The translations under genes were made by a program, and so were the position numbers. Source: Frankia sp. AgB32 (lineage in GTDB: Bacteria; Actinomycetota; Actinomycetes; Frankiales; Frankiaceae). Taken from it: a stretch of DNA of 60,551 bases. Location: assembly GCF_023243045.1 (NCBI RefSeq), contig NZ_JALKFX010000014.1:30238-90788 (forward strand). Direction: 5' to 3'. The notes beneath the pieces were generated by a model. It was not told the origin of the DNA. It saw nothing but the letters and a program-made list of their open reading frames with translations, and did not search any database. Of this stretch, positions 809 to 58,573 are shown one piece after another; position 1 is the first letter of the stretch, and each line of letters opens with the position of its first letter.

Positions 809-2260
809 ATGGCCTGGGCGGATCTGCGTGCGTTTCTCGCACATCTCGAACGGCGTGGGGACCTGCGGCGGGTGTCGGCGACCGTCGATCCCCGGCTGGA
901 GATCACCGAGATCGTGACCCGGGTGGTGCGCGAGCGGGGACCGGCGCTGCTGTTCGAGTCGCCGCTCGGCGCGGACATGCCGGTGGCGATCAACGTGTTC
1001 GGAACCGAGGTGCGGATGGCTGCGGCGCTCGGCGTGGAGCGCCTGGACGACATCGGTGACCGGCTCGCGGCGCTGCTGCGCCCGGAGCTGCCGACCGGAC
1101 TGTCCGGGCTGCGCGACGCGCTGGGCAAGGCCGCGTCGCTGACCTCGCTGCCGCCGCGCCGCGTGCGCACCGCGCCCTGCCAGGAGATCGTGCACAAGGG
1201 GTCGGAGGTCGACCTGTTCCGGCTGCCCGGCCTGCATGCCTGGCCGGAGGATGGCGGCGCGTTCCTCAACCTGGGTCTCACCCACACCCGCCACCCGGAG
1301 ACCGGCGCCCGCAACCTGGGGATGTACCGGCTGCAGCGCCACGACGCGCGGACCGTCGGCATGCACTGGCAGATCCACAAGGACTCCAACGCCCATCACG
1401 CGGTCGCCGAGCGGCGCGGGGAGCGCCTGCCGGTGGCGATCGCGTTCGGCTGCGACCCGGCGGTCACCTACGCGGCCTCCGCGCCGCTGCCCGCCGACAT
1501 CGACGAGTACCTGTTCGCCGGGTACCTGCGCGGCGAGCGGGTCGAGATGGTCGACTGCCTGTCGGTTCCGCTGCGGGTGCCGGCGAACTCCCAGATCGTG
1601 CTGGAGGGGTGGCTGGAGCCGGGGGAGCGGCTGCCGGAGGGCCCGTTCGGCGACCACACCGGCTTCTACACCCCGGTCGAGCCGTTCCCCGCGCTGCACG
1701 TCGACGTCATGACGATGCGCCGGGACCCGATCTTCCAGACGATCATCGTCGGTCGGCCGCCGCAGGAGGACGGGCCGATGGGCAAGGCGACCGAACGCAT
1801 CTTCCGGCCGCTGATCAAGATGATGATCCCCGAGATCGTCGACTACGACCTGCCCGAGGCCGGGGTCTTCCACAACTGCTGCATCGTCTCGATCGACAAG
1901 CGATTCCCGAAGCACGCGCAGAAGGTGATGAACGCCATCTGGGGTGCGGGGCTGCTGTCCCTGTCCAAACTGATCGTCGTCGTCGACGCCGACTGTGACG
2001 TCCACGACTACGCCGAGGTTGCCTGGCGGGCGTTCGGCAACGTTGACTACGCGCACGATCTGATCACCATGGTCGGCCCGGTGGACCACCTCGACCATGC
2101 CTCCTACGAGCAGTTCTGGGGCGGCAAGGCCGGCGTCGACGCGACCCGCAAACTGCCGACCGAGGGTTACCGTCGGGAGGGTGGCTGGCCGACCGAGATC
2201 GTCATGGACGAGGCGGTCCGCGCCCAGGTCACCCGCCGTTGGAAGGAGTACGGCCTTTGA
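809..2260 (+). CDS. mqnL: UbiD-family decarboxylase, futalosine menaquinone pathway (MqnL-like)
   Basis: This 483-residue UbiD-type decarboxylase carries the family signature EGPFGDHTGFY (around residue 275). UbiD enzymes remove the ring carboxylate using prenylated FMN. In actinobacteria that lack the classical Men pathway, this homologue is assigned to decarboxylation of the prenylated dihydroxy-naphthoate intermediate. The start ATG at 809 has AGGA at 798-801 with 7-nt spacing; a longer in-frame start at 764 lacks family-like sequence. The stop overlaps the TTG start of the UbiA gene, and a UbiX gene that would supply the prFMN cofactor follows. The role rests on the co-located mqnE and mqnA, so the family is certain and the exact substrate is inferred. 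Confidence 0.9.
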   Translation: MAWADLRAFLAHLERRGDLRRVSATVDPRLEITEIVTRVVRERGPALLFESPLGADMPVAINVFGTEVRMAAALGVERLDDIGDRLAALLRPELPTGLSGLRDALGKAASLTSLPPRRVRTAPCQEIVHKGSEVDLFRLPGLHAWPEDGGAFLNLGLTHTRHPETGARNLGMYRLQRHDARTVGMHWQIHKDSNAHHAVAERRGERLPVAIAFGCDPAVTYAASAPLPADIDEYLFAGYLRGERVEMVDCLSVPLRVPANSQIVLEGWLEPGERLPEGPFGDHTGFYTPVEPFPALHVDVMTMRRDPIFQTIIVGRPPQEDGPMGKATERIFRPLIKMMIPEIVDYDLPEAGVFHNCCIVSIDKRFPKHAQKVMNAIWGAGLLSLSKLIVVVDADCDVHDYAEVAWRAFGNVDYAHDLITMVGPVDHLDHASYEQFWGGKAGVDATRKLPTEGYRREGGWPTEIVMDEAVRAQVTRRWKEYGL

Positions 2261-3210
2261 GTGACGCGACCTTCCTGCCGGGCCCGGGCGGCGCGGCAGC
2301 ACCCGGACGGGGCGCCGGCGGCGGCCCGGACCACGAGCTCGGCCACGTTCGGGCGTTCCTGCGCCTCGTCGTCATCGAGCACTCGGTGTTCGCCCTGCCG
2401 TTCGCCTACATCGCGGCGCTGGCGGCGTCGTTCGCCGCGTCCGGGTCGGTGCACTGGGCCGACCTGGCGCTCGTCACCGTCGCCATGGTCGCGGCGCGGA
2501 CCTTCGCGATGGCCGCGAACCGGATCATCGATCGGGCGATCGACGCGCGCAACCCGCGCACGGCCAACCGGGAGCTCGTCACGGGTGCCGTGTCGCTGCG
2601 TACCGCCGTGGTCGGCTCCGTGGCGGCGCTCGGCGTGTTCCTCGCCGCCGCGGCCGCGTTGTCCTGGCTGTGCCTCGCGCTGGCGCCGATCGCGGTCGCC
2701 CCGTTGGTGATCTATCCGTACGCCAAGCGGTTCACCGACTTCCCGCACGCGGTGCTCGGCATCGCGCAGGCCGTCGCCCCGATCGGTGCCTGGATCGCGG
2801 TCACCGGCCACTGGTCGTGGGCGGCGTTCGTGCTCGGTCTCGCCGTCGGCAGCTGGATCGGCGGGTTCGACCTGATCTACGCCTGCCAGGACGCCGAGAT
2901 CGACCGGCGGATCGGGGTGCGGTCGGTGCCGGCCCGCTTCGGCGTCCGCGGGGCGCTGATCGGCTCGAGCGTCACGCATGTCGTGACGTTCGGCCTGTTC
3001 GTCGGGTACGGCCTGATGGCGAGCGCCGGCGCCTGGTGGTGGGCGGGCCTGGCGATCACCGCGGCGATCTTCTGCTACGAGCATGCGATCGTCTCGCCGA
3101 CCGACCTGTCCCGGGTGAACCGGGCGTTCCTCACCGCGAACGGTTTCGTCGGCATCGCCCTGTTCGCCTTCGCTGTCGCCGACCTGCTCAGCCGCGGCCT
3201 GTCCGGCTGA
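2257..3210 (+). CDS. mqnP: UbiA-family prenyltransferase (MqnP-like)
   Basis: This is a 317-residue polytopic membrane protein with the two aspartate-rich UbiA motifs: NRIIDRAID (first NRxxDxxxD motif) and DAEID (second DxxxD motif). UbiA enzymes attach a polyprenyl chain to an aromatic ring using Mg-pyrophosphate chemistry, here most likely the menaquinone side chain. The TTG start at 2257 overlaps the ubiD stop by 4 nt (TTGA) and is preceded by a strong GGAAGGAG at 2241-2248 with 8-nt spacing, indicating translational coupling. Frame-compatible codons further upstream lie inside the ribosome site and were rejected. Confidence 0.9.
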   Translation: MSDATFLPGPGGAAAPGRGAGGGPDHELGHVRAFLRLVVIEHSVFALPFAYIAALAASFAASGSVHWADLALVTVAMVAARTFAMAANRIIDRAIDARNPRTANRELVTGAVSLRTAVVGSVAALGVFLAAAAALSWLCLALAPIAVAPLVIYPYAKRFTDFPHAVLGIAQAVAPIGAWIAVTGHWSWAAFVLGLAVGSWIGGFDLIYACQDAEIDRRIGVRSVPARFGVRGALIGSSVTHVVTFGLFVGYGLMASAGAWWWAGLAITAAIFCYEHAIVSPTDLSRVNRAFLTANGFVGIALFAFAVADLLSRGLSG

Positions 3211-3223
3211 GTCGACGCGTCGC

Positions 3224-3940
3224 GTGAGCTCCGCATCGCCCTCGCGGGTGCCATGGGTCGTCGGGGTCAGCGGCGCGAGCGGAACGCCGTACGCCGCCGC
3301 AGTGCTGCGCGGCCTGCTCGCCGCCGGGCTTCCGGTCGACCTGGTGATCTCCCGCGCCGCCCGGCTCACCCTGCTCGACGAGACCGGCATCGCCTGGCAC
3401 GACGGCGACTGGGCGACGTCGCTGACCGCCTGGCTGACCCAGCCGCTCGACGCGGGCACCGGGGGCAACGGGGGCGACGCGGCGCGCGCCGGGGCGGCGA
3501 CCGCGCTCGCCGCCGCGGTGCGCGCGCTGGTCGAGGTGCACGCGGCGGGCAACCTCGCGGCGGCGCCGAGCAGTGGTTCCCATCCGACCCGCGGGATGAT
3601 CGTCGTCCCGGCGAGCACCGCGTCCCTCGCCGGGATCGCGCTCGGGCTGTCCAAGGACCTTCTCCAGCGTGCGGCGGACGTGACCCTCAAGGAGGGGCGC
3701 CGGCTGGTCGTCGTCCCCCGGGAGATGCCGTACACCGGGGCGACGCTGCGCCACATGCTTGCCCTGCACGACGCGGGCGCGGTCGTCGCCGCAGCGAGTC
3801 CCGGCTTCTACGCGGGCGCTCGCCGCGCCGCCGACCTCGTGGACTTCGTCGCCGGTCGGGTCCTCGACGCGGCCGGGGTCGAGCACACGCTGTACCGGCG
3901 ATGGGCCGGTGAGCTGGGCGGCGCCCGCCAGTCCTGCTGA
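3224..3940 (+). CDS. mqnM: UbiX-family flavin prenyltransferase (MqnM-like)
   Basis: This 238-residue flavoprotein has the N-terminal UbiX/Pad1 motif GVSGASGTPYA and the C-terminal region PREMPYTGATLRHM that shapes the FMN and dimethylallyl-phosphate site. UbiX makes the prenylated FMN needed by UbiD enzymes, and its position 14 nt after the ubiA gene completes a UbiD-UbiA-UbiX set. An Ala/Gly-rich insertion at about residues 80-110 makes it longer than the usual UbiX length of roughly 190-200. The start is GTG at 3224. Confidence 0.9.
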   Translation: MSSASPSRVPWVVGVSGASGTPYAAAVLRGLLAAGLPVDLVISRAARLTLLDETGIAWHDGDWATSLTAWLTQPLDAGTGGNGGDAARAGAATALAAAVRALVEVHAAGNLAAAPSSGSHPTRGMIVVPASTASLAGIALGLSKDLLQRAADVTLKEGRRLVVVPREMPYTGATLRHMLALHDAGAVVAAASPGFYAGARRAADLVDFVAGRVLDAAGVEHTLYRRWAGELGGARQSC

Positions 3941-43866: not shown

Positions 43867-46371
43867 ATGTTCGAGAGATTCACCGACCGGGCACGTCGGG
43901 TCGTCGTCCTGGCTCAAGAAGAGGCCAGGATGCTCAACCACAACTACATCGGGACCGAGCACATCCTGCTGGGCCTGATCCACGAGGGCGAGGGCGTCGC
44001 CGCCAAGGCCCTCGAGTCCCTCGGCATCTCCCTTGAGGGTGTGCGGTCGCAGGTCGAGGAGATCATCGGCCAGGGCCAGCAGGCGCCGAGCGGGCACATC
44101 CCGTTCACGCCGCGTGCGAAGAAGGTCCTGGAGCTCTCGCTTCGGGAAGCCCTGCAGCTCGGCCACAACTACATCGGCACGGAGCACATCCTGCTCGGCC
44201 TGATCCGCGAGGGCGAGGGCGTCGCCGCCCAGGTGCTCGTGAAGCTCGGCGCCGACCTCAACCGCGTGCGCCAGCAGGTCATCCAGCTTCTGTCGGGCTA
44301 CCAGGGCAAGGGCGAGACGGCGACCTCCGGCGCCCCCGCCGAGGGCACCCCCTCCACCTCCCTGGTGCTCGACCAGTTCGGCCGCAACCTCACCGCCGCG
44401 GCGCGCGAGTCCAAACTCGACCCGGTCATCGGGCGCGAGAAGGAGATCGAGCGCGTCATGCAGGTGCTGTCGCGCCGGACCAAGAACAACCCGGTCCTGA
44501 TCGGCGAGCCCGGTGTCGGCAAGACCGCCGTCGTCGAGGGCCTGGCGCAGGCGATCGTCAAGGGCGAGGTGCCCGAGACCCTGAAGGACAAGCAGCTCTA
44601 CACCCTCGACCTCGGCGCGCTGGTCGCCGGTTCCCGCTACCGCGGTGACTTCGAGGAGCGGCTGAAGAAGGTCCTCAAGGAGATCCGCACCCGCGGCGAC
44701 ATCATCCTGTTCATCGACGAGCTGCACACGCTGGTCGGCGCGGGCGCCGCCGAGGGCGCGATCGACGCCGCGTCGATCCTCAAGCCGATGCTGGCCCGCG
44801 GTGAGCTGCAGACGATCGGTGCCACCACCCTAGACGAGTACCGCAAGCACCTGGAGAAGGACGCGGCCCTCGAGCGCCGCTTCCAGCCGATCCAGGTCGC
44901 GGAGCCGTCGGTGGCGCACACCATCGAGATCCTCAAGGGCCTGCGCGACCGGTACGAGGCGCACCACCGCGTGTCGATCACCGACGCCGCCCTGGTCGCC
45001 GCCGCGTCGCTGGCCGACCGCTACATCTCCGACCGCTTCCTGCCGGACAAGGCGATCGACCTGATCGACGAGGCCGGGTCCCGGATGCGCATCCGCCGGA
45101 TGACCGCGCCGCCGGACCTGCGCGAGTTCGACGAGCGCATCGCGAACGTCCGCCGGGACAAGGAGTCCGCGATCGACGCACAGGACTTCGAGAAGGCCGC
45201 CTCGCTGCGCGACAAGGAGAAGACCCTCCTCTCGGAGAAGGCCAAGCGGGAGAAGGAGTGGAAGGCCGGCGACATGGACGTCGTCGCCGAGGTGGGCGAC
45301 GAGGAGATCGCCGAGGTCCTCGCCATCTGGACGGGCATCCCGGTCTTCAAGCTCACCGAGGAGGAGACCGCCCGCCTCCTGCGCATGGAAGACGAGCTGC
45401 ACAAGCGGGTCATCGGCCAGCAGCAGGCCATCAAGGCCGTCTCCCAGGCCATCCGGCGTACCCGCGCCGGCCTGAAGGACCCCAAGCGCCCCGGCGGTTC
45501 GTTCATCTTCGCCGGCCCGTCCGGTGTCGGTAAGACCGAGCTCTCGAAGACGCTCGCCGAGTTCCTCTTCGGCGACGAGGACGCGCTCATCCAGCTCGAC
45601 ATGTCCGAGTACATGGAGAAGCACACCGTCTCGCGGCTGGTGGGCTCCCCGCCCGGATACGTCGGTTACGAGGAGGGCGGCCAGCTCACCGAGCGGGTCC
45701 GGCGCAAGCCGTTCTCGGTCGTCCTGTTCGACGAGGTCGAGAAGGCACACCCGGACGTCTTCAACACGCTCCTGCAGATCCTGGAGGACGGTCGCCTGAC
45801 CGACTCCCAGGGCCGGCTGGTCGACTTCAAGAACACTGTCCTGATCATGACGTCGAACCTGGGCACCCGCGACATCTCCAAGGGCCCGGGCATCGGCTTC
45901 GCGACCGGCCAGGGCGCGGTCGACTACGAGCGGATGAAGGCCAAGGTCCAGGACGAGCTCAAGCAGCACTTCCGGCCTGAGTTCCTGAACCGGATCGACG
46001 ACATCATCGTCTTCCACCAGCTCTCCGAGAACGAGATCATCCGGATCGTCGACCTGATGCTGGCCCGGGTCGACATCCAGCTGAAGAACAAGGACATGGC
46101 CCTGGAGCTCACGTCGGCGGCCAAGGCGCTGCTGGCGAAGAAGGGCTACGACCCGGTGCTCGGCGCTCGGCCGCTGCGTCGGACGATTCAGCGGGAGATC
46201 GAGGACGTCCTCTCCGAGAAGATCCTGTACGGCACGCTCAAGCCGGGCGAGATCGTCGTCGGTGACGTCGAGGGTGAGGGCGAGAGCGCGAAGTTCATCT
46301 TCCGCGGCGAGACCAAGCCGAACCAGGTGCCCGACGCGCCCCCGGTCGACCTGGCGAAGTCGAGCGAGTAA
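43867..46371 (+). CDS. clpC: Clp protease ATPase subunit ClpC
   Basis: This 834-residue Hsp100 ATPase has two N-terminal repeats (each with [14 protein letters not shown], residues ~1-145). AAA domain 1 contains [13 protein letters not shown]; a UVR-type coiled region contains [16 protein letters not shown] (~425-460). AAA domain 2 contains [12 protein letters not shown] and [13 protein letters not shown]. It unfolds proteins for the ClpP protease and handles damaged proteins. AAGGAG at 43855-43860 serves the ATG. It is essential in relatives. Confidence 0.97.
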
Positions 46372-47212: not shown

Positions 47213-48165
47213 GGACCCTCCTCTGTGATCGGCGGACGCGGCGGGAGACCGCGCGTCGCGGGCCCGGGGCCGAGACCCCGTATGCTCACCGGCTGGGCCG
47301 TGGGAAGGCAGGCGGGTCCGGTGCGGCAACGGATCCGGGGCGTGGCTGACCGGCTGCGATCGATCCCCGTTCGACGAGCGCGGGTGCTCGGTCCGCCGGG
47401 TGGAGGCGGCCGCGACCCGAACGTATCGGTGCTTTCGTTCGCGCGACCAGGTCCGAGACCGCATTCTCCCCGGCGGGCCGGCAGTTTCCGCCGCGATCGC
47501 CCACGGTGACGAAATACCGGCCAAGATGCGGGCCGCGAATACCGACCGTTCATGAACCGCGGAGCACCGCTCCCCGACGTCGCCATCGCGAGATCTACCC
47601 GGGTGGCAACAAACCCGAGGGAACGTTTCCTGGCGCCCGGCGCGAACGTCGGTCGCAAGCCAGAATGCAGCGGCACTCAGCGGCAGTACTCTGCACATGC
47701 CGCTGCACGGCCAGGATGCGTGGCAGCACCCGCTGCGCCGCAGGGCAAAACCCTCGGTGAGTACTCGGCTGGCCGACCAGAACCCCGAACGGGACCACAC
47801 CGTTTCCCACCGGGCAGCCGGTGATTTCCCGCGCCCTCTGGACTACCCTAGGTTTCCCGGAATACCTTTTGACCAGACCTCGATGATTGGTCAATCACGC
47901 GATCAGCGGCATCGGCTGGAACCAGGACGGGGGGCAAACCATTGACCAGCATGTGGGGGGCCTCCCGCCGATTGGGCGCACCGGCAGCGACCTCCGGAAC
48001 CAGTGCCGCAATTGACCAAGAACATTGCCGGAGGTCTCGCCAGCAAGAGTCACAATGTCGGGGAGCCGGCGAGGATCGATCTACGTACACGGTGCTGAGC
48101 ATCAATCGACGACCGGCCCGGAGGAGGGCACCCACCCACGACTCGGCGCCCGTGCAGGGCCCCCG
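47213..48165. promoter_or_regulatory. Long non-coding region with repeated TTGACCA motif
   Basis: About 950 nt have no supported gene. TTGACCA occurs at 47869-47875, 47942-47948 and 48012-48018, and its reverse TGGTCAA at 47888-47894. The last pairs with the first copy as an inverted repeat. The copies are spaced about 70 nt apart and precede the four-gene cassette at 48166-56857, so they may be regulator sites or part of its promoter. Confidence 0.45.
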
Positions 48166-49959
48166 GTGAGCCTGCCGGCGACCGCCGTGACGACCTTGGA
48201 CCTCCGTCGGTGCCATCGCGACCCGGTGATGCGCGCCGGCGCTGACTCCCGATGGCTGGCCGCCCTGCTCAGCCGGCAGGCCGGCCTCGACGTGCGCCGC
48301 GCGGACCGCCTGCTGGTCGTGGACGACGCCAGCGCCGCACCCGCCCACCGGACGGTGATCGCGGAGCTCACCGCCGACCGGGCCACCGATGCGACGCTGC
48401 TCGTCCTGGTCGGCCCCGCGACCACCGGAATCGGGCCGCCGACCTGCGGCCCCGAGGACGAGCCTGGGAATCCCCCCGGTGGCTGGTCGCTGGGAGACGT
48501 CTGGGAATGCCCGTTCGACAGCACTCTCGGTGGCTGGCCGGACGACCTCGACGACGACTACCAGCCAGATCTCTACGCCTCGTACGAGGACACCTCCGAC
48601 GAGGACACCGCCGACGAGAACACCGCCGACGAGGCGGTCCCGGCTCCACCGGTCGCCTCCCGGGCTGTCCCGACACCTGGCGACGAGGCGGTCATGCCGG
48701 CGATCGTCTGGCTCTCGGCCGTGGGGGCCGAACCATCAGCCCCGCCAGAACCGGAATCCCTGTCAGAACCGACGTCGACCGCGCGCGACCAGGGCGCTGG
48801 GAGGGAGGCCGGCAGCCGCGAGTGGTGCGTTGCCCCTGACGACGGCGGCGCGATGGTGCGTGCCTGTGTCGATGCGCTGCGGTCGCCGGAGGTGTTCGAC
48901 GAGGTGTGTCGCGAGGTGTCCGCGATGCCGGGACGGCTCGCCTTTCCCGCCCTCGCCGTCGTTGTCGGCCGGCTTCCGGACGAGGTCCTGCGCACGATGC
49001 AGATCGAGGCGGCCGAGCGCTTCGTCGCGCTGGCCGGGCGACAGTCGCCGGTCGGGTCCGCGCTGGTCGAGGCCGCGCCGGCGGCGGCAGCCAGACCCGG
49101 CTACCGCGCGGCCCGGCTCGCCCACCTCACCGCCCGGCTTGCCTGCGTCGCGATGCCGCACGACTGCCTCGCGGCGTTGGTACCCCGCCTGTCGCCGCTA
49201 CCCCGCCGCCTGCCGCGCACGGACCGCTGGCGTCGGCGCAGGCCCACGCCGATCCGCCGGCTGACCGGCTCCGCCGCCGAGATCGTCGAGGAGATCGCCG
49301 CCTGTGCGGATGCCCTCGCCGGGTCCGGCGCCTGCCCGCCGGCCCGCGAACGGCCGGGCATCAGCCAGGCGGCCGCCGTCGCGCTGGCGGAGCAGGCCGG
49401 GGAGCTGGCCGCGCTGTTCGACGCCGACCTCGCCGACCTCGCCGCCGCCGCACTCGCGCGGCCGGCTGCCGCCGGCCCGGAGCACCGCCTGGGCCCGGGG
49501 CCCGGGCGGCCCGGGGTCGGTCGCCGCGTCAACGACCTGCTCGATGCCTACCACGAGCAGCTGCGGCAGGCTGGCGTACTGGAGCCGCCGAGCTTCGGCT
49601 CGACCGCGACCCGCCGGGCCGAACTCGGCCAGCGGGTCTGGCGGACGATCGCCATCCCCGCCGGGGACGCGCCAGTCGTCCGGCTGTTCGCGAGCGGACG
49701 GCAGACGGGCCGGTCGGATCCCCGGCCTGAGGCCGGCCGCTCGATCGTGTTCGCCCCGCACGCGGCCCGGCCGTCATCCGCCGCGGCGCGAACGACGTCG
49801 AGCGACCCGGTCGGCGCCAGCACGGACGGACCGTCCGCCGCCGTGCCGCGGACCACGCCGGTCTGGACCAGTTCGACGCTCGTCGCCGGTGTCCTGCGGC
49901 TTGTCCCGCCCCGGGACGCCACCTGCCTGGACGTTCTCTTCCCGGAGACCCAGACGTGA
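48166..49959 (+). CDS. Large unrecognised soluble protein, first of the cassette
   Basis: This protein of about 597 residues (GTG 48166, VSLPATAVTTLDL) has no membrane helix. Residues ~1-85 look folded. An acidic stretch around 140-165 has tandem DEDTADENTADE-type repeats. Residues ~225-460 form a helical Ala/Arg-rich body with SPEVFDEVCREVSAMPGRLAF. The final ~25 residues (STLVAGVLRLVPPRDATCLD) look folded again. I recognise no family. It is followed on the same strand by the 1040-residue protein after 49 nt. Confidence 0.65.
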   Translation: MSLPATAVTTLDLRRCHRDPVMRAGADSRWLAALLSRQAGLDVRRADRLLVVDDASAAPAHRTVIAELTADRATDATLLVLVGPATTGIGPPTCGPEDEPGNPPGGWSLGDVWECPFDSTLGGWPDDLDDDYQPDLYASYEDTSDEDTADENTADEAVPAPPVASRAVPTPGDEAVMPAIVWLSAVGAEPSAPPEPESLSEPTSTARDQGAGREAGSREWCVAPDDGGAMVRACVDALRSPEVFDEVCREVSAMPGRLAFPALAVVVGRLPDEVLRTMQIEAAERFVALAGRQSPVGSALVEAAPAAAARPGYRAARLAHLTARLACVAMPHDCLAALVPRLSPLPRRLPRTDRWRRRRPTPIRRLTGSAAEIVEEIAACADALAGSGACPPARERPGISQAAAVALAEQAGELAALFDADLADLAAAALARPAAAGPEHRLGPGPGRPGVGRRVNDLLDAYHEQLRQAGVLEPPSFGSTATRRAELGQRVWRTIAIPAGDAPVVRLFASGRQTGRSDPRPEAGRSIVFAPHAARPSSAAARTTSSDPVGASTDGPSAAVPRTTPVWTSSTLVAGVLRLVPPRDATCLDVLFPETQT

Positions 49960-50008
49960 TCGCGGCGGCCGCACGGGCGAGGAACCGGCCGACGCGGCAG
50001 GACCAGCC

Positions 50009-53000
50009 GTGATCGAGTATTCGTCGCCGATCAGAGTCCATGCCGACTGGACGGCCGACGCGAGCCGCATCGACCAGGTCGTCTACGTCTGGTCGCGGGC
50101 CCGCTCGGGCCAGGAGGGTTACTTCCCGGTCGCGAGCTCGCTCGGCTCGGCGGGAACCCGATCCTGGCGCGATCTGCTCGCCGGCCAGGCGGAGCCCGAC
50201 GACGCAGGGGTCGAGCATCCGGCGAGCTCGCTCGCCTACCTCGTCGGCGTCGCCGGCCGTCCGGGCCGGCGCGATCCGGACGAGGTGCCGCAGGCCGCGC
50301 TGGTGCACCGGGTCCGGGTCCCTGGCCGCAGCGGGCCGGGAACCGGCCGGCGGCGGGCGCACGTCCTGCTCGGCCGGGCGGACTACCTGACCGAACGAGT
50401 CGGGCTGGCGCTGTACTCGGCCGGGACGGGGCAGGCCGACGCGCCCCGCACCACCCCGCGGCTGGCCCCGCTGCGACTGGCGGAGCTGACCGGGCAACGC
50501 CGGACCGGCGAACGGTCCCTGCGGCACGGCGCCCGCGCCGCCGCCCGCCGGCACCGCCTGACCAACCTGATCGCGACGGTGCTCGCCTGGTCCTGGACGC
50601 AACGACCGTTCGCGGTGACGCACACCGGGTCGCAGGAGGCGGTCACGCTGATGTGGGCCCTCGTCGAGACGCTCGAGACGGTGCTTCCCTACCGGCTGAC
50701 CTTCTCGTCCCACATCGCCTCGGCCAGCGAGACCTCGGCCGGCGCGGACGGGGCAGGTGAGCACGCGGCCGGCAGCGCCGCGCGGGCGGCCGCCGACGAC
50801 GTGCCGCGGCCGGGACGGACCACGGCCGGATCCGTCGCGCCCCGGTTGCTGTTCGTCCCGATGCCGCTGGAACTGGCCGTCGGCCTGGACCCGGCTTCGA
50901 TTCACGTGGATCCACGGGTGCGGCCCTACGTCCCACCGGTCGTCCATGACGCCGCCCGGCTGCTGGTCGACGTGTATGGCCTGGGCGGCATGCGGGCGGT
51001 CAGTGGGCTGCTGGCAACGGTGGCGGACCAGGTGCTCCAGCCGAACGATCCGGAGCGCTGGTGCCGTTCGCTGGTGGCGGCGGGCAGCGCGGGCGCCAGC
51101 CATGTTCCGCCAGGCGTCCCGCTCGACCCCGAGGGTGCGCCCGGGCCGGCGGCGGCGGTCGGCCTCACGATCCTCGCCCGCGCGCGCGACTCCGCCCGTC
51201 CGTCGCACCCGTCCCGGACCGACCCGCCGGAGCCGCCACCCGCGGTCCCACCCGCCGAGGCGTCGACCGCCGTCGAGGCCGTCCCGGGGCCGCAGGCAAA
51301 GGCCGGATCGGCCCTGGCGGCCGTCGGGGTCGATGCGGCGGACACTCGGGCGGCGTGGCCGGTCGCGGACCATCTGCGCGACGCCTACGAGGCGATGCTG
51401 GGGCGGCCGCCCGCGACCGCAGGGGCATCGGCCGGGCCGGGCGGACTGGACCCGGCGCACGAGCTGGCTCTGGTTCTCACCTCTCCGGCCGGGCTGCCGG
51501 CCGACCTGCCGGCCGGCACGCGGTTCCAGGGCCAACTGCGCCGCCTCGCCGGCCTGCTGCTGGCGCCCGACACCGGCCCCCGGTCGGCGAAACGACCGGA
51601 GCACCGGCCGGCCCGGCCACCCTCCCAGCCAGCGCTGACGCAGGCCAGGCGCCGTGGACGGGCGGAGCTCGTCGATCGAATCCTGGCCCGCGCCGGCGAG
51701 GTCGGCGCGGATCCCAGCCGGGTCGCGGTCGAAAGCACCGTCGCCGAGTGGCAGCGGCAACTCGAAGGCCTGATCACCGCACTGGCGGACGATCTCGCCG
51801 CGCTGCCCGGGCCATCACCCACCCGAGGCATCGAGGAGGCGCTGCGACACGCGGCCCCGACGCTCACCGCCGGCCTCGAGGCGATCTTCACAGCCTGCCG
51901 GCTGCCCGCCGCCGCCGACAGGGCGCGGCGGCTGGCGGCGGAAACCCTGGCCGCGCTGCAGCCGGCCAGCCCCACACCATTGCCCGCCGGGCAGCCCCAC
52001 CCGGCGGGCAATGGGCCCGCGCACCCGATCACCACAGCCATCCCGATCACCACGACCACCCCAGCAGCCACGGCCACCCCAGCCACCGCCGGTCCGCTGG
52101 CGGTGCCAGGACCGACCAGCGCGACCTTGGCGACCGGCGGCTGGACACCCGACCCCGCCGTGGTCGTCCCGCCGGCAACCGCGTTCGCCGCGGCACACCC
52201 GGCGACGGCCAGCACGGCGACGGCCAGCACGGCGACGGCGGCCGGGCGGGTCGCGCCCGGCGGCGAGTCACCGGCCGCCACTGTCGTCCGCCTGCTGCGG
52301 GAGACCCACGCGTGGGGGGCCGACGCCTTCCGGCTGCTCGTCCTCTACGTGCCGGGCTGGGACGGCGCGCAGGATCTCCGACGCGCCATCGCCGACGCGG
52401 CCACGGTCTCGCCGGCCGTCGCGGCGGCCGGCGACGGCGGCGCCCTTCTCGCGGCCGGCGCCCGGCCCCTGTTCGAACAGCTCACGATCAGCAGGCCGGC
52501 GGGACAGACCTCGGAACGCATGACGGTGATCCGGCGGGTCCTCGATCTCTATCACCACGACCGCGCCGGCGCGGTCGATGCGGATCTCGCGGCCCTCAAC
52601 ACGGAGCTGGCCGCGCGCATCCCGGCCACCGACCCCACGGACCACAGCCCGACCGTGGCCTTCCTGGCCGCCTGCGAATCGGGGCTGCCGGACGCCGCGC
52701 AGGTCTTCGGACTGCTCGCCCGCCACGTACCCGGTTGGGAGGGCGAGCGGGACCTGCACGAGGCGATCTGGCGGTGGGGCACGGTCGGCCGGGACGACCG
52801 GGCGCAGCGCGGGTCGGAGCCACCGACGGGCGCGGCGTTGGCGGCGGCGGCGGAGCGTTACTTCCGCCGCACCGTCCAGTCCGCCGACGCCGAGGCCGGC
52901 GGCCCGCATCCGGCCGACCTGGAACGCGTGGTGCGGCGCCTGGCGACGCTCTACCTCCCGGACGACCCCCGGCTGCGGGCCGCCGCGGCACTGGCGGACA

Positions 53001-53131
53001 TGGTCGAGTCCCGCATCATTACCGAGATCACCGACGGCCCGAACCGGCGACGCCGCCGCTCCTTCGGGCTCCCCGTGATCGCCCTCACCCTGATGACCGC
53101 TGTCGTGCTCCCGTCCCCGGCACGGCGGTGA
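50009..53131 (+). CDS. Large unrecognised protein with hydrophobic C-terminal tail
   Basis: This protein is 1040 residues long. Residues ~1-310 look like a conserved body: VIEYSSPIRVHADWT, ALVHRVRVPG, RRAHVLLGRADYLTERVGLALY, MWALVETLETVLPYRLTFSSH and a VPMPLELAVGLDP segment. The layout faintly recalls GTPase-associated GAP1-type proteins, but no signature is secure. A long Ala/Pro/Thr linker (about 360-750) follows, then helical repeats with the paired phrases VLYVPGWDGAQDLRRAI and ARHVPGWEGERDLHEAI (about 770-1000). The last ~18 residues before the end (FGLPVIALTLMTAVVLPS) are hydrophobic, suggesting a tail anchor. GTG 50009 has AGGA at 49999-50002. Confidence 0.65.
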   Translation: MIEYSSPIRVHADWTADASRIDQVVYVWSRARSGQEGYFPVASSLGSAGTRSWRDLLAGQAEPDDAGVEHPASSLAYLVGVAGRPGRRDPDEVPQAALVHRVRVPGRSGPGTGRRRAHVLLGRADYLTERVGLALYSAGTGQADAPRTTPRLAPLRLAELTGQRRTGERSLRHGARAAARRHRLTNLIATVLAWSWTQRPFAVTHTGSQEAVTLMWALVETLETVLPYRLTFSSHIASASETSAGADGAGEHAAGSAARAAADDVPRPGRTTAGSVAPRLLFVPMPLELAVGLDPASIHVDPRVRPYVPPVVHDAARLLVDVYGLGGMRAVSGLLATVADQVLQPNDPERWCRSLVAAGSAGASHVPPGVPLDPEGAPGPAAAVGLTILARARDSARPSHPSRTDPPEPPPAVPPAEASTAVEAVPGPQAKAGSALAAVGVDAADTRAAWPVADHLRDAYEAMLGRPPATAGASAGPGGLDPAHELALVLTSPAGLPADLPAGTRFQGQLRRLAGLLLAPDTGPRSAKRPEHRPARPPSQPALTQARRRGRAELVDRILARAGEVGADPSRVAVESTVAEWQRQLEGLITALADDLAALPGPSPTRGIEEALRHAAPTLTAGLEAIFTACRLPAAADRARRLAAETLAALQPASPTPLPAGQPHPAGNGPAHPITTAIPITTTTPAATATPATAGPLAVPGPTSATLATGGWTPDPAVVVPPATAFAAAHPATASTATASTATAAGRVAPGGESPAATVVRLLRETHAWGADAFRLLVLYVPGWDGAQDLRRAIADAATVSPAVAAAGDGGALLAAGARPLFEQLTISRPAGQTSERMTVIRRVLDLYHHDRAGAVDADLAALNTELAARIPATDPTDHSPTVAFLAACESGLPDAAQVFGLLARHVPGWEGERDLHEAIWRWGTVGRDDRAQRGSEPPTGAALAAAAERYFRRTVQSADAEAGGPHPADLERVVRRLATLYLPDDPRLRAAAALADMVESRIITEITDGPNRRRRRSFGLPVIALTLMTAVVLPSPARR

Positions 53132-53347
53132 GGCCGGGCCCGCGTCACCGCGGGCGGGCGCCACGACACTCTCGGACGTCCGGTGCCCTACTCGGGATCG
53201 TTCAAGTCTGGAACAATGACCAGCACTTGTGTCGGAGTCACGACACACCCGTGGTCCACGGGACGTCGATGTCCTTGAGTAGCAAGAAGGACGGCTGGCG
53301 ACACGTCCGGCAGCGTGGTCATGACTGGTTCGGCGGGGACGGAGGCC

Positions 53348-54922
53348 ATGGGTAGCTCGCTGGTGCCGATCATGCTCATCGTGGTGCTGCTGGTGGCCCT
53401 GGTGATCTTCCTCTACCTGAACAACCAGCCGACTCGGCGGGGAAACCAGCGCCCCAGGCGTGGCCTGAACCACGAGCGCCACCAATCCGGTACGGTGCCG
53501 ATCCGTGACGACCCCGATACGGCCGCCCTCGACGACCTTCCCGGCTTCACCGAACCGGATCCGGCGCCCGCGGTCGCCGTGCCGGCGGCGGAGTCACGCG
53601 CGGCGGACAGCGAACCTGCGGACACCCGCCTGGCCAGGGTGTATCACCTCGGTGGGGCCACGGACGACGAACATGCGGCCGGCGGGGCGGAAGCCGGCCG
53701 AGCGGGCGGACAGGCCCGTGAGGGCGCCAGGGCGAGCAACGTCGGTCCGGACGGTGACGGTTCGACCGGCCCGGCTTCGGCCGACAGGGGGACACATGAT
53801 CCACGGGACAGTGACCCAGGTACGGCCGAGGCAGGCTCCGTCGGGATCGCCGGCGCGCCGTGGGGAGGGACAGTGACCGCGCAGGTTCCCGCGGGCGAGT
53901 ACGGCCGCGGATCCGATCCCGACGCGACCGGCTGGACGCCACCGCCCGCGACGCCCCCGCACGAGGTGCCGCCCTACGACGACGATCGGCAGAACACGAC
54001 CCGGTACTACGACCCGCAGACCGGCGACTTCCCCATCGCGCCGCCGACCACGACCTACATCCCGCAGCCGACCGCGCCGGAGCCGGTCGCCCACGCGGGA
54101 GCGGGTGATCCGCGCTGGGAGAGCACCCCCACCGCGACGACCTTTCCCGGCATGACACCCCCGCCCACCACCCGGGAGCACGCGGCGGACCTCGTCGCGA
54201 CCGAACCCGAGGAGCCCACGGCCGCGCCGCTGCGGCTGGCCGCCGCCGGGCGGACCCGCCGGGGCAAGCGCGGCGGGCCCAACGAGGACGCGTTCGTCGT
54301 CGTCGACGGCCTGCTCGCGGTGGCCGACGGGGTGGGCGGCGAGGCCGCCGGCCAGATCGCCTCGACCCTCACCGTCACCACGGTCGCCGGTTTCCGGCCG
54401 CAGTACGCCGAGGATCCGCTGGAGGGCCTGCGCAAGGCGGTCAATCGGGCGAACCGGGTGGTGCGCACCCGCGCCCGGGAGGAGCCCACCTGGCTCGGCA
54501 TGGCCTGCACGCTCGACGTCGTCATCCTCGGCCGGCAGCGCAGCACCGGCGAGTACCTCACCGTCGCGCACGTCGGCGACAGTTCGGTCTGGTTGCAGCC
54601 GGGGCGTGGGCGCCCCCGGGCACTGACCACCCCGCACGCGATCCGTAACGGCCCGCTGCTCAACGCGGTCGGTCTCGCCGACGAGATCGAGGCCGACATC
54701 TTCTCCGAGCCGGTGCGCGCCGGGGACCGGGTGGTGCTCGCCAGCGACGGCATCACCAAGGTGATGACGCCAGAACAGCTCGACGGCCTGATGAGCGAAC
54801 TCGGCTCCTCACCGCCGGAGCGGGCCGCGGACGCCCTCGTCGAGGCCGCCCTGCTCGCCGGCGCGCGGGATGACACCACCATCGTCGTCGCCGACCTGGT
54901 GTCCGAGCCCACCGGACGGTGA
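53348..54922 (+). CDS. Membrane-anchored PP2C-type protein phosphatase
   Basis: This protein of about 524 residues starts with a helix (about 5-25, LVPIMLIVVLLVALVIFLYL). A ~265-residue acidic Pro/Thr-rich linker follows, then a PP2C domain (about 293-520). PP2C metal motifs are visible: GGPNEDAF, LLAVADGVGGEAAG, VAHVGDSSVWL, VLASDGITKVM and ARDDTTIVVADL. It removes phosphate from Ser/Thr residues. ATG 53348 was preferred (GGGGA about 8 nt upstream); ATG 53321 is also possible. It sits 216 nt after the 1040-residue protein and 69 nt before the RyR protein. Confidence 0.88.
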   Translation: MGSSLVPIMLIVVLLVALVIFLYLNNQPTRRGNQRPRRGLNHERHQSGTVPIRDDPDTAALDDLPGFTEPDPAPAVAVPAAESRAADSEPADTRLARVYHLGGATDDEHAAGGAEAGRAGGQAREGARASNVGPDGDGSTGPASADRGTHDPRDSDPGTAEAGSVGIAGAPWGGTVTAQVPAGEYGRGSDPDATGWTPPPATPPHEVPPYDDDRQNTTRYYDPQTGDFPIAPPTTTYIPQPTAPEPVAHAGAGDPRWESTPTATTFPGMTPPPTTREHAADLVATEPEEPTAAPLRLAAAGRTRRGKRGGPNEDAFVVVDGLLAVADGVGGEAAGQIASTLTVTTVAGFRPQYAEDPLEGLRKAVNRANRVVRTRAREEPTWLGMACTLDVVILGRQRSTGEYLTVAHVGDSSVWLQPGRGRPRALTTPHAIRNGPLLNAVGLADEIEADIFSEPVRAGDRVVLASDGITKVMTPEQLDGLMSELGSSPPERAADALVEAALLAGARDDTTIVVADLVSEPTGR

Positions 54923-54991
54923 CGTCGGCGGCCGGCGCCGCGCGGGGCGGGTCGTGACGCGACTCGGCCGGCGAGCCCGAGGCCGGCACCG

Positions 54992-56857
54992 GTGATCGGC
55001 CCGGGCGCGGGCCGCCAAGGCTACCTCGGCGGCCCGGGCATCGTGCTGGCCCTGGCCGGCCGGCTGGCACGCTGGCTGCGCCATCATCTGCTCGGCGTGT
55101 TCGCGGTGCTCGGGGTCATCGCCTTCACGCTCGGCCTGATCGGGATGTACCGGCTGTTCAAGGCCACGCCGGCGACGTTCAGCTGGCCGAACGTCGTCTA
55201 CTTCACCGCGACGTTGTTCCTTCTCGACGGCAACGTCTTCGTGGGCGCCGGTCACTTCCCGCTGACCCTGGAGATCGCCCGCTTCCTCGCTCCGCTCGCG
55301 ACGGCGGTGGGTGTCGCGGACGCCGTCAGCACGGTCTTCGCGCAGCGCTTCGAGCGGTTCCGGGCTCGCCGAGCCCGCCATCACGTGGTCGTGTGCGGCA
55401 CCGGACCCACCGCCTCCGCCCTGGTCGACAGGTTGTCGCAGACGAAGCGGGTGGTGCTCGTCGCCGAGGACGCGCAGCGCGAGTACCCGGACACCGAACG
55501 GCCCGCGGGGCTGCTGCGGGTGGTCGGCGATCCGGTCGAACCGCTGGTGCTGGCAAAGGCCGGCATCGCCCGGGCCGACGTGGTCTACGGATGCCTGCCG
55601 GACACCTCCTCGAACCTGGCGATCGCGCTCGCCGCCCGGCGCCTGGCCGTCGACCGGGCGGACCAGCCGCTGCGCTGCCTGGCCCAGGTCGGCGACCTGT
55701 CACTGATCCCGCATCTGCGGGCCCGCCGGATCGGGCTGGACGACGACGCCGGGTTTCGGCTGGACTTCTTCGCCATCGAGGTGCTGGGTGCGCACGCCCT
55801 GCTCAACCGCCACCCGCCGAGCTGGGCGGCGGCCGACGCGGAGGGCGCGCCGCCCGCCCAGCCGGCACCCCTGGTCGTGCTCGGTCTGTCCGGGCTGGGC
55901 CGGGCCCTGGTGATGGAACTGGCGCGCCGCTGGCGGACGTTCGCCGGCGCGACCGGAGCGCTGCTGCCCATCGCCGTGTCCGACCCCGACGCCGTGGCGA
56001 AGCTCGCCCTGTTACGGGCCCGCGAGCCGGCCCTGTCCCGGGTCGTGCTGACCGGCCACGACACCCAGAACGGCGAGCTTCCCCCGGCCGTCCTGGCCGC
56101 CACCGACCGGCTCGGCCCGCCCGAGTTCGTCTACGTCTGCCTCGGCGACGAGGAGCGCGCTCTGCTGTTTGGACTCGATGCCGCCCAGGTGCTCAACGAG
56201 CACTTCGGCGTCAGGCGTACCACGGTCATCGTGCGTACCGGCCGGCAGCGGAGTTTACAGGACGTCTTCGGCCAGCAGGACACCGCCCTGCCCGCGACCC
56301 CGATGCCGCTGCTGGAGAACCTGCGGGGCGGCGTCCGCTTCTTCGCGGTGAACGACGAGGCGCTGCCGCTGGACCTTGGCGACACCGACCTGATCGAGCG
56401 GTTCGCCCAGGCCAGCCACAACCGCTACCTGGAGGCCGAGCGCCGCCGCGGCCAGGCGATGGGATCCCGGCGGGCGATGGTGCCCTGGGAGGAGCTGCCC
56501 GAGGACCTGCGTGACTCCAACCGGGCCCAGGCCGCGCAGTTCGGCGAGGTCCTGCGGACCCAGAACCTCATGCTGATGCCCGCCGGGGAGGCGGACTCCG
56601 ACTTCGCCTTCACCGGCGCCGAGATCGAGCAGCTCGCCCAGCAGGAACACGAGCGCTGGCGGCGGGAACGGGCTGCGAAGGGTTTCACCGTCGGTCCGGT
56701 CGCGCAGGACGGTCCTGACCGCCGCCATCCGGCGATGGTCGACTGGGCCGCGCTGACCGAGGTCGATCGTGAACGCGACCGGGACGTGATCCGCACTCTG
56801 CCGGACATTCTCGCGCACGCCGGGCTACGCATCGTCCCGCTCAACCGACCGAGCTGA
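54992..56857 (+). CDS. Two-TM RCK-like protein with two C-terminal RyR repeats
   Basis: This protein is 621 residues long. TM1 is ~33-56, a pore-loop-like stretch is ~68-90 (VVYFTATLFLLDGNVF), and TM2 is ~96-116. A Rossmann domain begins HHVVVCGTGPTASAL (~130-144) and has the RCK/TrkA-N look, including LLRVVGDPVEPLVLAKAGI. A second nucleotide-binding motif APLVVLGLSGLGRALV is at ~292-307. The C-terminus carries two RyR-like units, ~466-526 (VPWEELPEDLRDSNRAQA) and ~543-613 (VDWAALTEVDRERDRDVI). There is no canonical K+ filter. It looks like a ligand-gated channel or membrane sensor; function is not established. GTG 54992 is the start. Confidence 0.8.
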   Translation: MIGPGAGRQGYLGGPGIVLALAGRLARWLRHHLLGVFAVLGVIAFTLGLIGMYRLFKATPATFSWPNVVYFTATLFLLDGNVFVGAGHFPLTLEIARFLAPLATAVGVADAVSTVFAQRFERFRARRARHHVVVCGTGPTASALVDRLSQTKRVVLVAEDAQREYPDTERPAGLLRVVGDPVEPLVLAKAGIARADVVYGCLPDTSSNLAIALAARRLAVDRADQPLRCLAQVGDLSLIPHLRARRIGLDDDAGFRLDFFAIEVLGAHALLNRHPPSWAAADAEGAPPAQPAPLVVLGLSGLGRALVMELARRWRTFAGATGALLPIAVSDPDAVAKLALLRAREPALSRVVLTGHDTQNGELPPAVLAATDRLGPPEFVYVCLGDEERALLFGLDAAQVLNEHFGVRRTTVIVRTGRQRSLQDVFGQQDTALPATPMPLLENLRGGVRFFAVNDEALPLDLGDTDLIERFAQASHNRYLEAERRRGQAMGSRRAMVPWEELPEDLRDSNRAQAAQFGEVLRTQNLMLMPAGEADSDFAFTGAEIEQLAQQEHERWRRERAAKGFTVGPVAQDGPDRRHPAMVDWAALTEVDRERDRDVIRTLPDILAHAGLRIVPLNRPS

Positions 56858-56872: not shown

Positions 56873-58573
56873 TCAGCCGACCCGCTGGTCGACGGGGCAG
56901 TCCAGGGCGCTGGCCCGGGTCAGCCCGTCGACCGACAGCCGGGCGGTCAGGCGCACCGGCCCGGCCGACTCGGTGAGGATCCCCGTCCAGCCGCCGGCGG
57001 CCCGGAACACGCATGCCCGGCCCTCCCCCGGCTGCCAGTACGGCGTGTAGTGCACGAGGACCGTGGCGATGCCGGGCGTGCGGAAGTCGACGGCCATGGA
57101 GCTCACCCCGAGCTCGGTCAGGCTCGCCGGCCCCTGCACCAGGCCGGGCGAGTCGGTGACGAGCCAGACCTTCCAGTGCGCGTCCTGCCAGGCCAGGTCC
57201 AGGTACGGCAGGCCGGCCCGCAGCAGCTTCGCCTCGGCGACCGCGGAGGGGTCCAGGTTCACGTCGGGCAGGGCGACATAGCGGATGCCGCGGGCCAGCA
57301 GCCACTGGTGGTACGTCTCGGCGTTCAGCGTGCCGTCGTAGAACAGGGCGTTGTACTTGCTGTCGAGCTGCCGCAGCCAGCCGCGGGCCATCGGCACCGA
57401 CGGCGCGACGTAACGCGCCTCCCAGTGCGCCTGGGTGAACGGCACCTCCACCCGTCCCGCGGACACCGGTGTGCCCCGGTGCAGGTAGTCGAGCAGGCCC
57501 GCGTAGTACCCGGACCCGGCGGACGGGTCACCCTGGGTGAGCAGGGCGCCGTGCAGCGGCCCGAACTGCCAGCCCATCAGCGGGATCGCCACGATCGCGA
57601 GCAGCCGACGCCGGTCGGCGAGCAGCAGCGCCGCCGCCGGGCCGGCCAGCAGCGTCGCCGGCCGGGTGATGTTCCCGCCGACCTGGGACGGGACGAAGAA
57701 GAACAAGGTCGCCGCGGCCGCCCACAGCAGCAGGCCGTGCCGGATCGCCCGGGCGTCACGCGGGACGACGAGCAGCCCCACCCCGATCAGCGAGAGCAGC
57801 GAAAGGTAGGTCACGGCGGGAAAGGGCTGGTATCCGTCCTCCGGGAAGGCGAGCGCGACGCCGATGCCGGCCCCGGCGCCGAGGAACGGAAGCACCCGCC
57901 GCCAGCCGATCGTCGGCAGCAACGCGCAGCCGACGAGCAGCACGAAGCCGGCCGCCAGGGGGGAGGCCAGCGAGGACAGGATCGCGCCGGCCCAGGTGAG
58001 CTTCGTGCGCCGCTCCCGCGCGCCGAGCAGCGCCAGCGCGCCGAAGGCCATCCCGAGGGCGAACGGCATCCGGCCCACGACCAGGTTCGACACGGTCGCG
58101 ACGGCGAACCAGACCAGGACGAGTTCGTGCCCCGAGCGCCGCCGCGGACCACGCAACAGCCGGGTGACGAGCACGGTGGACGCCACACAGGACAGCGCGC
58201 CGAGAACCTCCACCCCGAGCAGCGCCCCCAGCGGGGGGAACAGGACACTGTACCCGGGTATGGTGTGGCCGCCGTACCATTGATCGTCCCAGAGCAGCGC
58301 CCCACCGTGGCGGAAGAGCCACACCCGGTATTCCTGGGCGGGGGTGTCGGGACCGGTCACGCCGAACCCGACGCACAGCAGGCACAGGACAGCGGTCAGC
58401 ACCCAGGGCCAACGGCACGCCACGGCGACCACCGCGCTGGCCGCGCGCCACACCGGCCCACGGTGCCGCGGTGGTTCGAGGGCGACGAAAGGGGTCTGGG
58501 GTAGTGCAGCCACTCGGGGCTCGGTCTCGCCTTTTGGTGCCGCGGCTGCGGCCGACGAGCGGCCGACCGGCAT
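56873..58573 (-). CDS. Polytopic membrane protein, possible GT-C-type
   Basis: This protein is about 566 residues long. Roughly ten hydrophobic helices lie between residues ~45 and 350. The first long loop (about 70-100) contains WLFRHGGALLWDDQWYGGH, an acidic-residue loop position similar to GT-C glycosyltransferases. The last ~220 residues form a soluble domain with ARGIRYVALPDVNL. A sugar-transfer role is possible but unproven. ATG 58573 was chosen; GTG 58513 is an alternative. It converges on the RyR gene with a 15-nt gap. Confidence 0.75.
   Translation of the reverse strand: MPVGRSSAAAAAPKGETEPRVAALPQTPFVALEPPRHRGPVWRAASAVVAVACRWPWVLTAVLCLLCVGFGVTGPDTPAQEYRVWLFRHGGALLWDDQWYGGHTIPGYSVLFPPLGALLGVEVLGALSCVASTVLVTRLLRGPRRRSGHELVLVWFAVATVSNLVVGRMPFALGMAFGALALLGARERRTKLTWAGAILSSLASPLAAGFVLLVGCALLPTIGWRRVLPFLGAGAGIGVALAFPEDGYQPFPAVTYLSLLSLIGVGLLVVPRDARAIRHGLLLWAAAATLFFFVPSQVGGNITRPATLLAGPAAALLLADRRRLLAIVAIPLMGWQFGPLHGALLTQGDPSAGSGYYAGLLDYLHRGTPVSAGRVEVPFTQAHWEARYVAPSVPMARGWLRQLDSKYNALFYDGTLNAETYHQWLLARGIRYVALPDVNLDPSAVAEAKLLRAGLPYLDLAWQDAHWKVWLVTDSPGLVQGPASLTELGVSSMAVDFRTPGIATVLVHYTPYWQPGEGRACVFRAAGGWTGILTESAGPVRLTARLSVDGLTRASALDCPVDQRVG

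Follow-up and report, generated by a model that had tools for sequence, protein, structure and literature searches.

A run of four plus-strand genes in a 60,551-nucleotide (nt) stretch of Frankia sp. AgB32 (contig NZ_JALKFX010000014.1, positions 30,238 to 90,788; this whole stretch is referred to below as the window, and positions are counted from its first letter) is made up of two adjacent pairs and not of one system. The first pair, genes 1 and 2, is of unrecognised family; the second consists of a PP2C phosphatase gene (gene 3) and of a gene, here called RCK-RyR (gene 4), whose product joins RCK and RyR domains, and we think it probable that these two side-by-side units include, in PP2C and RCK-RyR, a nucleotide-sensing membrane signalling pair. 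The products are 597, 1040, 535 and 621 amino acids (aa) long, and the same four genes were picked by the listing of open reading frames (ORFs) and by a caller based on codon usage, with clpC and genes 2 to 4 as seeds. An earlier note, made from the sequence, had described four large same-strand genes, the first two unrecognised and the second with a hydrophobic tail, followed by a phosphatase anchored by a transmembrane (TM) helix and by a two-TM RCK-like protein with RyR repeats. All of this is borne out by the results given below, whereas its proposal that the four genes form a single module is not.

The locus was compared, using tblastn, in 13 Frankia-type genomes (window included) and in six genomes of a sister genus. 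PP2C was found in all 19 loci (13/13 and 6/6) and RCK-RyR in 18 of them (12/13 and 6/6), while gene 2 was present in 13/13 and gene 1 in 11/13 of the Frankia-type loci and neither in any of the six sister-genus loci (0/6 for each). One absence of gene 1 (genome G006) corresponds to a contig edge; in G010, gene 1 and RCK-RyR are both missing and gene 2 and PP2C are kept, PP2C lying 94 nt from the convergent gene that follows. The locus is split across contigs in four genomes (G001, G006, G007 and G012), and eight show the full four-gene run on a single contig (G000, G002-G005, G008, G009 and G011). With gene starts as set by the codon-usage caller, five loci show a 4-nt overlap of genes 1 and 2, and four an interval of 25-49 nt; for PP2C and RCK-RyR, three loci have a 4-nt overlap and the others leave at most 150 nt between the two genes. 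Between gene 2 and PP2C the spacing is 183-419 nt (11 loci). Pairwise ratios of non-synonymous to synonymous substitution rates (dN/dS) were 0.67-0.76 for gene 1 (four pairs) and 0.48-0.55 for gene 2 (five pairs), against 0.14-0.32 for PP2C (five pairs), 0.27-0.35 for RCK-RyR (four pairs) and 0.08-0.20 for the flanking convergent gene (four pairs). Spacing and dN/dS thus split the genes in the same way as presence and absence do, i.e. into two units.

The earlier note had offered fixed co-occurrence of all four genes in varied genomic places as support for one system, and separate conservation as evidence against it. The genes are in fact separately conserved, and the four occur together at one syntenic position only, between clpC and an MptB-like gene. 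One could still imagine a single membrane module of four parts, serving as a phospho-regulated sensor or in defence, from which the sister genus lost genes 1 and 2, given the uninterrupted same-strand run in eight genomes and the terminal hydrophobic segment that gene 2 often has, like the other two membrane proteins. We regard this as very unlikely: the wide gap before PP2C, the unequal constraint on the two pairs, the persistence of PP2C and RCK-RyR without genes 1 and 2 at the locus in every sister-genus genome, and that of gene 2 and PP2C without RCK-RyR in G010 all speak against it. As to defence, genes 1, 2 and 4 had no match in the defence library, and RCK-RyR had none on plasmids, so that this part of the earlier proposal is not supported; PP2C matched only PDC-M21C in PADLOC (E 0.0051), and a defence role for the PP2C/RCK-RyR pair is possible. 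What survives of the phospho-regulated membrane sensor is a membrane pair conserved in two genera, and not the four-gene unit; the idea of a nucleotide sensor gains from the RyR module, which carries residues of a nucleotide-binding domain.

RCK-RyR (54992 to 56857) reads from its N-terminus as a TM helix, a short helix, a second TM helix, the domains RCK1 and RCK2, and RyR repeats 1 and 2. Its closest named relatives are Frankia proteins (91% identity in Frankia sp. AgKG'84/4, 70-76% in F. canadensis, F. torreyi and Frankia sp. AiPa1). Two Pfam families score above their cut-offs, TrkA_N with 51.4 bits and RyR (PF02026) with 42.3 bits against a cut-off of 27.4; RyR was matched in all nine family members scanned, and in the window protein one RyR stretch appears at a stricter threshold and two at a looser one. 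In profile searches the RyR match has an E-value of 2.6e-30 and the match to the channel GsuK one of 3.3e-13, the latter over RCK1 only. By sequence RCK1 alone is matched, RCK2 being taken from the second Rossmann domain of the structure model, in which two Rossmann domains (55382 to 56350, residues ~131-453) are accompanied by two helical repeats. The N-terminus is channel-like (55076 to 55339, residues 29-116), with two hydrophobic segments, TM1 and TM2, on either side of a possible pore helix (65-78); the helices predicted in this part of the model are 15-58, 65-78, 90-105 and 109-127.

In a Foldseek search of the PDB, GsuK (4gx5) came first (E 1.5e-7) and the Repeat12 domain (R12) of the human ryanodine receptor RyR3 fifth, with a TM-score of 0.59 by target. 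With VIA, the model was superposed on a B. thetaiotaomicron/human Repeat12 chimera (6uhi) with a Z-score of 13.7 and a root-mean-square deviation (rmsd) of 2.9 Å over 155 residues, and on RyR3 with ATP with 13.2 and 3.5 Å over 160 residues. The model therefore seems to match RyR3 Repeat12 better than GsuK. Single RCK domains also fit well (2.5 Å for MthK). As far as the model goes, the RyR module appears well supported and the ring arrangement of the RCK domains only loosely so. That the tandem RyR repeats form one cleft is indicated by the fold match over residues 456-618, which constitute the Repeat12-like module (56357 to 56845), together with the two RyR stretches.

The residues lining this cleft can be compared with those of two proteins of known ligand. 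In RyR3 Repeat12, AMP-PCP or ADP is bound in a cleft that is pseudosymmetric, and Trp880 stacks on the adenine (PMC12627627). RyDEP, a Repeat12 protein of a mycobacteriophage (DyoEdafos gp78), cleaves 2'/3' cyclic ADP-ribose (2'/3'cADPR) by means of H75 and D117, W78 and H100 holding the ligand, according to a 2026 preprint (PMC13232231). These four residues, H75, W78, H100 and D117, have as their aligned counterparts in the window protein H553, W556, H579 and D596 (BLASTP E 3e-6). In an alignment of 30 family members, all from one bacterial family, so that invariance holds within that range, H553, W556 and H579 are invariant in the 29 rows that cover the site, while the position of D596 holds D in 20 of the 29 and S, A or N in the other nine. 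In RyR repeat 1, H476, W499 and N510 are invariant (30/30); position 479 is occupied by Y in 27 rows and by F in three. Binding would thus be conserved and catalysis optional, a pattern to be expected of a sensor. With animal R12, RCK-RyR shares the tandem RyR repeats and the fold (VIA Z 12.2-13.3), as well as an aromatic residue in each of the two stacking positions (Y479 and W556); it differs in that one Trp is replaced by Tyr or Phe, in that the position of R494, which we paired with the arginine of repeat 1 that binds phosphate, is R in only 14/30 rows, and in being a small bacterial RCK protein instead of a giant Ca2+ channel.

The partner gene, PP2C (53315 to 54922), codes for a single strong N-terminal TM segment (residues 15-33), a long linker and a Ser/Thr phosphatase core that scores 49.4 bits with Pfam PP2C_2 (cut-off 24) and displays the motifs PNED, DGVGG, GDS, SDG and DDT. 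Because PNED and DGVGG are kept in 17/17 members of its cluster, as is L.SDG, the phosphatase is probably active. For the pair we infer the following scheme, in which the nature of the ligand, the link to phosphorylation and any conduction are all conditional. On its cytoplasmic side, RCK-RyR would carry a GsuK-like double RCK stacked with a Repeat12, both of them sensing nucleotides. The RCK part would bind ADP or NAD+ in the manner of GsuK, and ATP or an ADP-ribose species would enter the RyR cleft and close its clamshell; the closed clamshell would in turn alter the state of the membrane segment, and the co-encoded PP2C would reset the phosphorylation of RCK-RyR or of a partner. A bolder version, which we put forward with considerable doubt, is that RCK-RyR is a nucleotide-gated conductance, that it senses an NAD-derived signal (ADP-ribose or 2'/3'-cADPR, for example) by opening or closing a pore, and that PP2C resets it.

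Several points weigh against such a reading. It is the predicted topology that suggests conduction, and confidence in the model is middling (mean pLDDT 59, pTM 0.39); the channel topology is weak since pLDDT falls below 50 in the TM part. GsuK, a Geobacter double-RCK K+ channel which PMC3510474 presents as activated by ADP and NAD+, resembles RCK-RyR in having two RCK domains after a two-TM part. However, identity in the Foldseek alignments is 13-17%, the TM-score is low (~0.2, with an rmsd of 20.8 Å over the whole chain), and RCK-RyR has an additional RyR module and no selectivity-filter motif: the pattern [TS]-x-G-[YFLI]-G was found in the first 140 residues of none of 30 family members, and no Pfam ion-channel domain in any of the nine scanned. 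As neither was found, RCK-RyR may be a membrane-anchored sensor and not a pore. The double-RCK arrangement is shared with the gating rings of plant CASTOR and DMI1 and of bacterial TrkA, chains in which no RyR module was matched, but the superposition is loose (VIA Z 11.6 and rmsd 11.4 Å for LjCASTOR, 12.1 and 11.2 Å for MtDMI1, 12.6 and 11.2 Å over 261 residues for TrkA); as a whole, the RCK-ring matches over residues 130-458, with rmsd of 10-13 Å and Z of 11-12.6, lie below the safe level of VIA. The variation of D596 also implies that enzyme activity is not general in the family. Finally, RCK-RyR homologues of 33-39% identity exist in other genera of the family in different neighbourhoods, and no member of the window PP2C cluster was found in the examined flanks of these distant genes, so that the PP2C/RCK-RyR pair rests on two sister genera. 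In the same vein, the window PP2C had no tblastn match in seven non-Frankia RyR loci, nor beside the full-length RCK-RyR genes of three further genomes among 246 sampled across the phylum, the flanks covered being both sides in L126, one side in L125 and a 3.5-kb contig in L127; about five candidates per genome were scored in that sampling, and absence from the remaining genomes is therefore not firm.

RyR genes found elsewhere provide hints of another kind. In genome G131 (L129, 2524-8340), a transglutaminase-type gene, a gene with PP2C-like motifs, an FHA-domain gene and an RyR gene stand in a row; the RyR gene adjoins the FHA-domain gene and lies two genes from the PP2C-like one, which was recognised through its NED and DGIGG motifs in a motif scan and has no Pfam match, and the row is possibly a second phospho-signalling locus with RyR. 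In G224 (L128, 4029-6011), a 660-aa protein combines RyR, TPR and a sub-threshold match to LSDAT_prok (SLOG in TRPM). Both cases hint at an association of RyR domains with phospho- and nucleotide signalling, and they pull in the opposite direction to the weak figures obtained with GsuK and the RCK rings.

Two other functions have been considered for RCK-RyR. Like phage RyDEP, it could degrade or soak up cyclic ADP-ribose signals instead of sensing them, since the window protein has counterparts of all four RyDEP residues, the catalytic H and D included. A source of such signals may also be at hand: the 28 TIR_2 matches in the genome mean that ADP-ribose signals could be made in the host, yet TIR_2 is present in 33 of the 35 genomes of the order, a prevalence that discriminates nothing and proves nothing. 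RyDEP is a 138-aa soluble phage protein, as opposed to a host membrane protein here, and its catalytic D is not conserved across the RCK-RyR family, where it is the binding residues that are invariant. In the preprint (PMC13232231), eight other phage homologues were tested, of which six bound 2'/3'cADPR and none cleaved it. Taking into account that a module fused to RCK domains and TM helices looks more like a sensor, we find a degrading or sequestering role hardly probable. A link with Thoeris was rejected: ThsB_TIR, absent from the genome under study, occurs in 13 of the 35 genomes, and neither it nor TIR_2 tracks the presence of RCK-RyR among them. The other function is envelope or cell-wall homeostasis, suggested by the location of the pair beside mannosyltransferase-type genes: a convergent membrane gene (56873 to 58453) and the MptB-like gene adjoin it in both genera, and in two other Frankia-genus genomes stand-alone tandem RyR genes of 169 and 182 aa (L109, 4445-4954, and L110, 4231-4779) lie directly downstream of a gene of ~1330 aa, presumably AftD-like. 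The argument is one of neighbourhood, and the homologues in other genera have different neighbours; we thus consider this role unlikely, and nucleotide sensing at the membrane remains our preferred reading of the PP2C/RCK-RyR pair.

The remaining interest of the locus lies in RCK-RyR, where a single protein of 621 residues joins RCK domains of the channel type to an apparently intact Repeat12 pocket, and which puts bacterial ADP-ribose signalling and the regulation of animal ryanodine receptors on one testable host protein. Were the conductance version true, the same Repeat12 module would be found in animal ryanodine receptors, in phage proteins that bind or destroy immune signals and in a bacterial channel, and the latter, a bacterial ryanodine-receptor-like channel, would offer a simple model for how cADPR-type signals act on RyR. 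Among the literature matches listed, none reports a bacterial protein that combines RyR with RCK; prokaryotic RyR domains are reported to have been discussed by Burroughs and colleagues (NAR 2015), and the RCK-RyR architecture may already be in print.

Having been separated from a supposed single system, genes 1 and 2 deserve a study of their own as a genus-specific orphan pair; to judge from their sequences, they are coupled, fast-evolving and seen in one genus. Neither matches any Pfam, NCBIfam or PADLOC family at E ≤1, or any PHROGs family at E ≤0.01; of eight gene 2 homologues, one gave a match to DUF2379 at chance level (E 0.11). Gene 1 (48166 to 49959), which lies near or overlaps gene 2 depending on the locus, appears weakly constrained or else diversifying, as its dN/dS and the mild bias of differences towards the third codon position (e.g. 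44, 36, 50) indicate, and part of it may be non-functional; its segment of residues ~310-510 is common only to L042 and missing in six other aligned relatives. Gene 2 (50009 to 53131) has a conserved N-terminal domain (~20-355), a middle of variable length and a C-terminal part in which two similar stretches can be discerned by eye, with a hydrophobic tail (1018-1036, mean 1.79). Of the 11 cluster members whose sequence extends to the C-terminus, eight have a C-terminal segment that passes the same cut-off, the duplicate L035 and the N-terminal fragment L051_5 being left out. The N-terminal domain was found in 12 of the 35 genomes of the order, all in the genus Frankia (the contig of G006 holds just the C-terminal end and is hence outside these 12). 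A profile search of 296 actinobacterial genomes gave the window and four stray matches of 17-21 bits, with about seven candidates scored per genome, so that absence there is not firm. In the closest relative, pieces of gene 2 occupy the two ends of a 9.2-kb contig (L051, which is also the contig of L031; 7539-8720) that further carries an MptB-gene 1 chimera, probably through an assembly error.

One possible origin for this pair is a decayed or highly divergent NTP-dependent conflict system of the GAP1 (GTPase-associated protein 1) type. Such GTPase-centric systems are described by Kaur et al. (2020, PMC7159879), with TM-bearing proteins in multicellular actinobacteria, and a faint similarity of the gene 2 N-terminus to GAP1-N2 is possible. 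Residues 21-241 of gene 2 are collinear with 3-220 of a GAP1 profile (13 rows, 11 of them distinct, as two loci were entered twice) over 199 columns, and the raw score of 28.8 exceeds those of all 37 control profiles and that of its own reverse. Nevertheless, the match is not significant (P 0.0054), and one control, c36, with a score of 26.7, has a lower P (0.0025). Five divergent GAP1 proteins taken alone gave no match to gene 2, the Pfam family GAP1-N2 (PF20013) was matched neither in the genome under study nor in any of the eight gene 2 homologues, and genes 1 to 4 and the scanned flanks (three genes) contain no GAP1 profile, GTPase or FNIII match. A structure prediction for residues 1-359 was unusable (pLDDT 34.5), and a profile search of the PDB with the N-terminus returned at best dynactin at chance level (E 0.69). 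The GAP1 identity, expected from a reading of the N-terminus, is accordingly kept as a rival only, and an improbable one. GAP1 genes themselves do occur in relatives: L084-L089 are operons that carry, along with GAP1-N2 genes, genes of DnaK type and GTPase type (labels given by eye), and in L079-L083 a divergent GAP1-N2 protein, possibly a solo GAP1-GTPase fusion, ends in a P-loop domain (GPPASGKTT) and stands opposite a gene of 633-690 aa.

Upstream of the four genes lie clpC (43867 to 46371, labelled from its translation) and, on the opposite strand, a TauE-type gene; downstream, the convergent membrane gene ends 15 nt past RCK-RyR and the MptB-like gene starts at ~58813 (NF038066, 68.7 bits against a cut-off of 40). 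The window lacks, in 47213-48165, a phosphoesterase-like gene (cluster c7, labelled by eye) that several relatives have, as confirmed by a negative tblastn search. A scan for promoters found none, and one for terminators gave three sites, all on the minus strand and of no use here. In phage records, the window RyR module retrieved 84 matches at E ≤1, an RyR bait from another genus 241 at E ≤0.01, and one stand-alone Frankia RyR none. The stand-alone RyR of L109 aligns with all four RyDEP residues. G010, whose locus is without RCK-RyR, has a distant copy (34% identity) broken by a stop (L057, 8908-10407), near a gene that we take to code for a type VII secretion-like ATPase. The locus L056, from a different genus of the family, has a stand-alone RyR gene immediately after RCK-RyR (1188-1727 and 1814-3661) and, nearby, genes that look, by eye, like glutamine synthetase genes.

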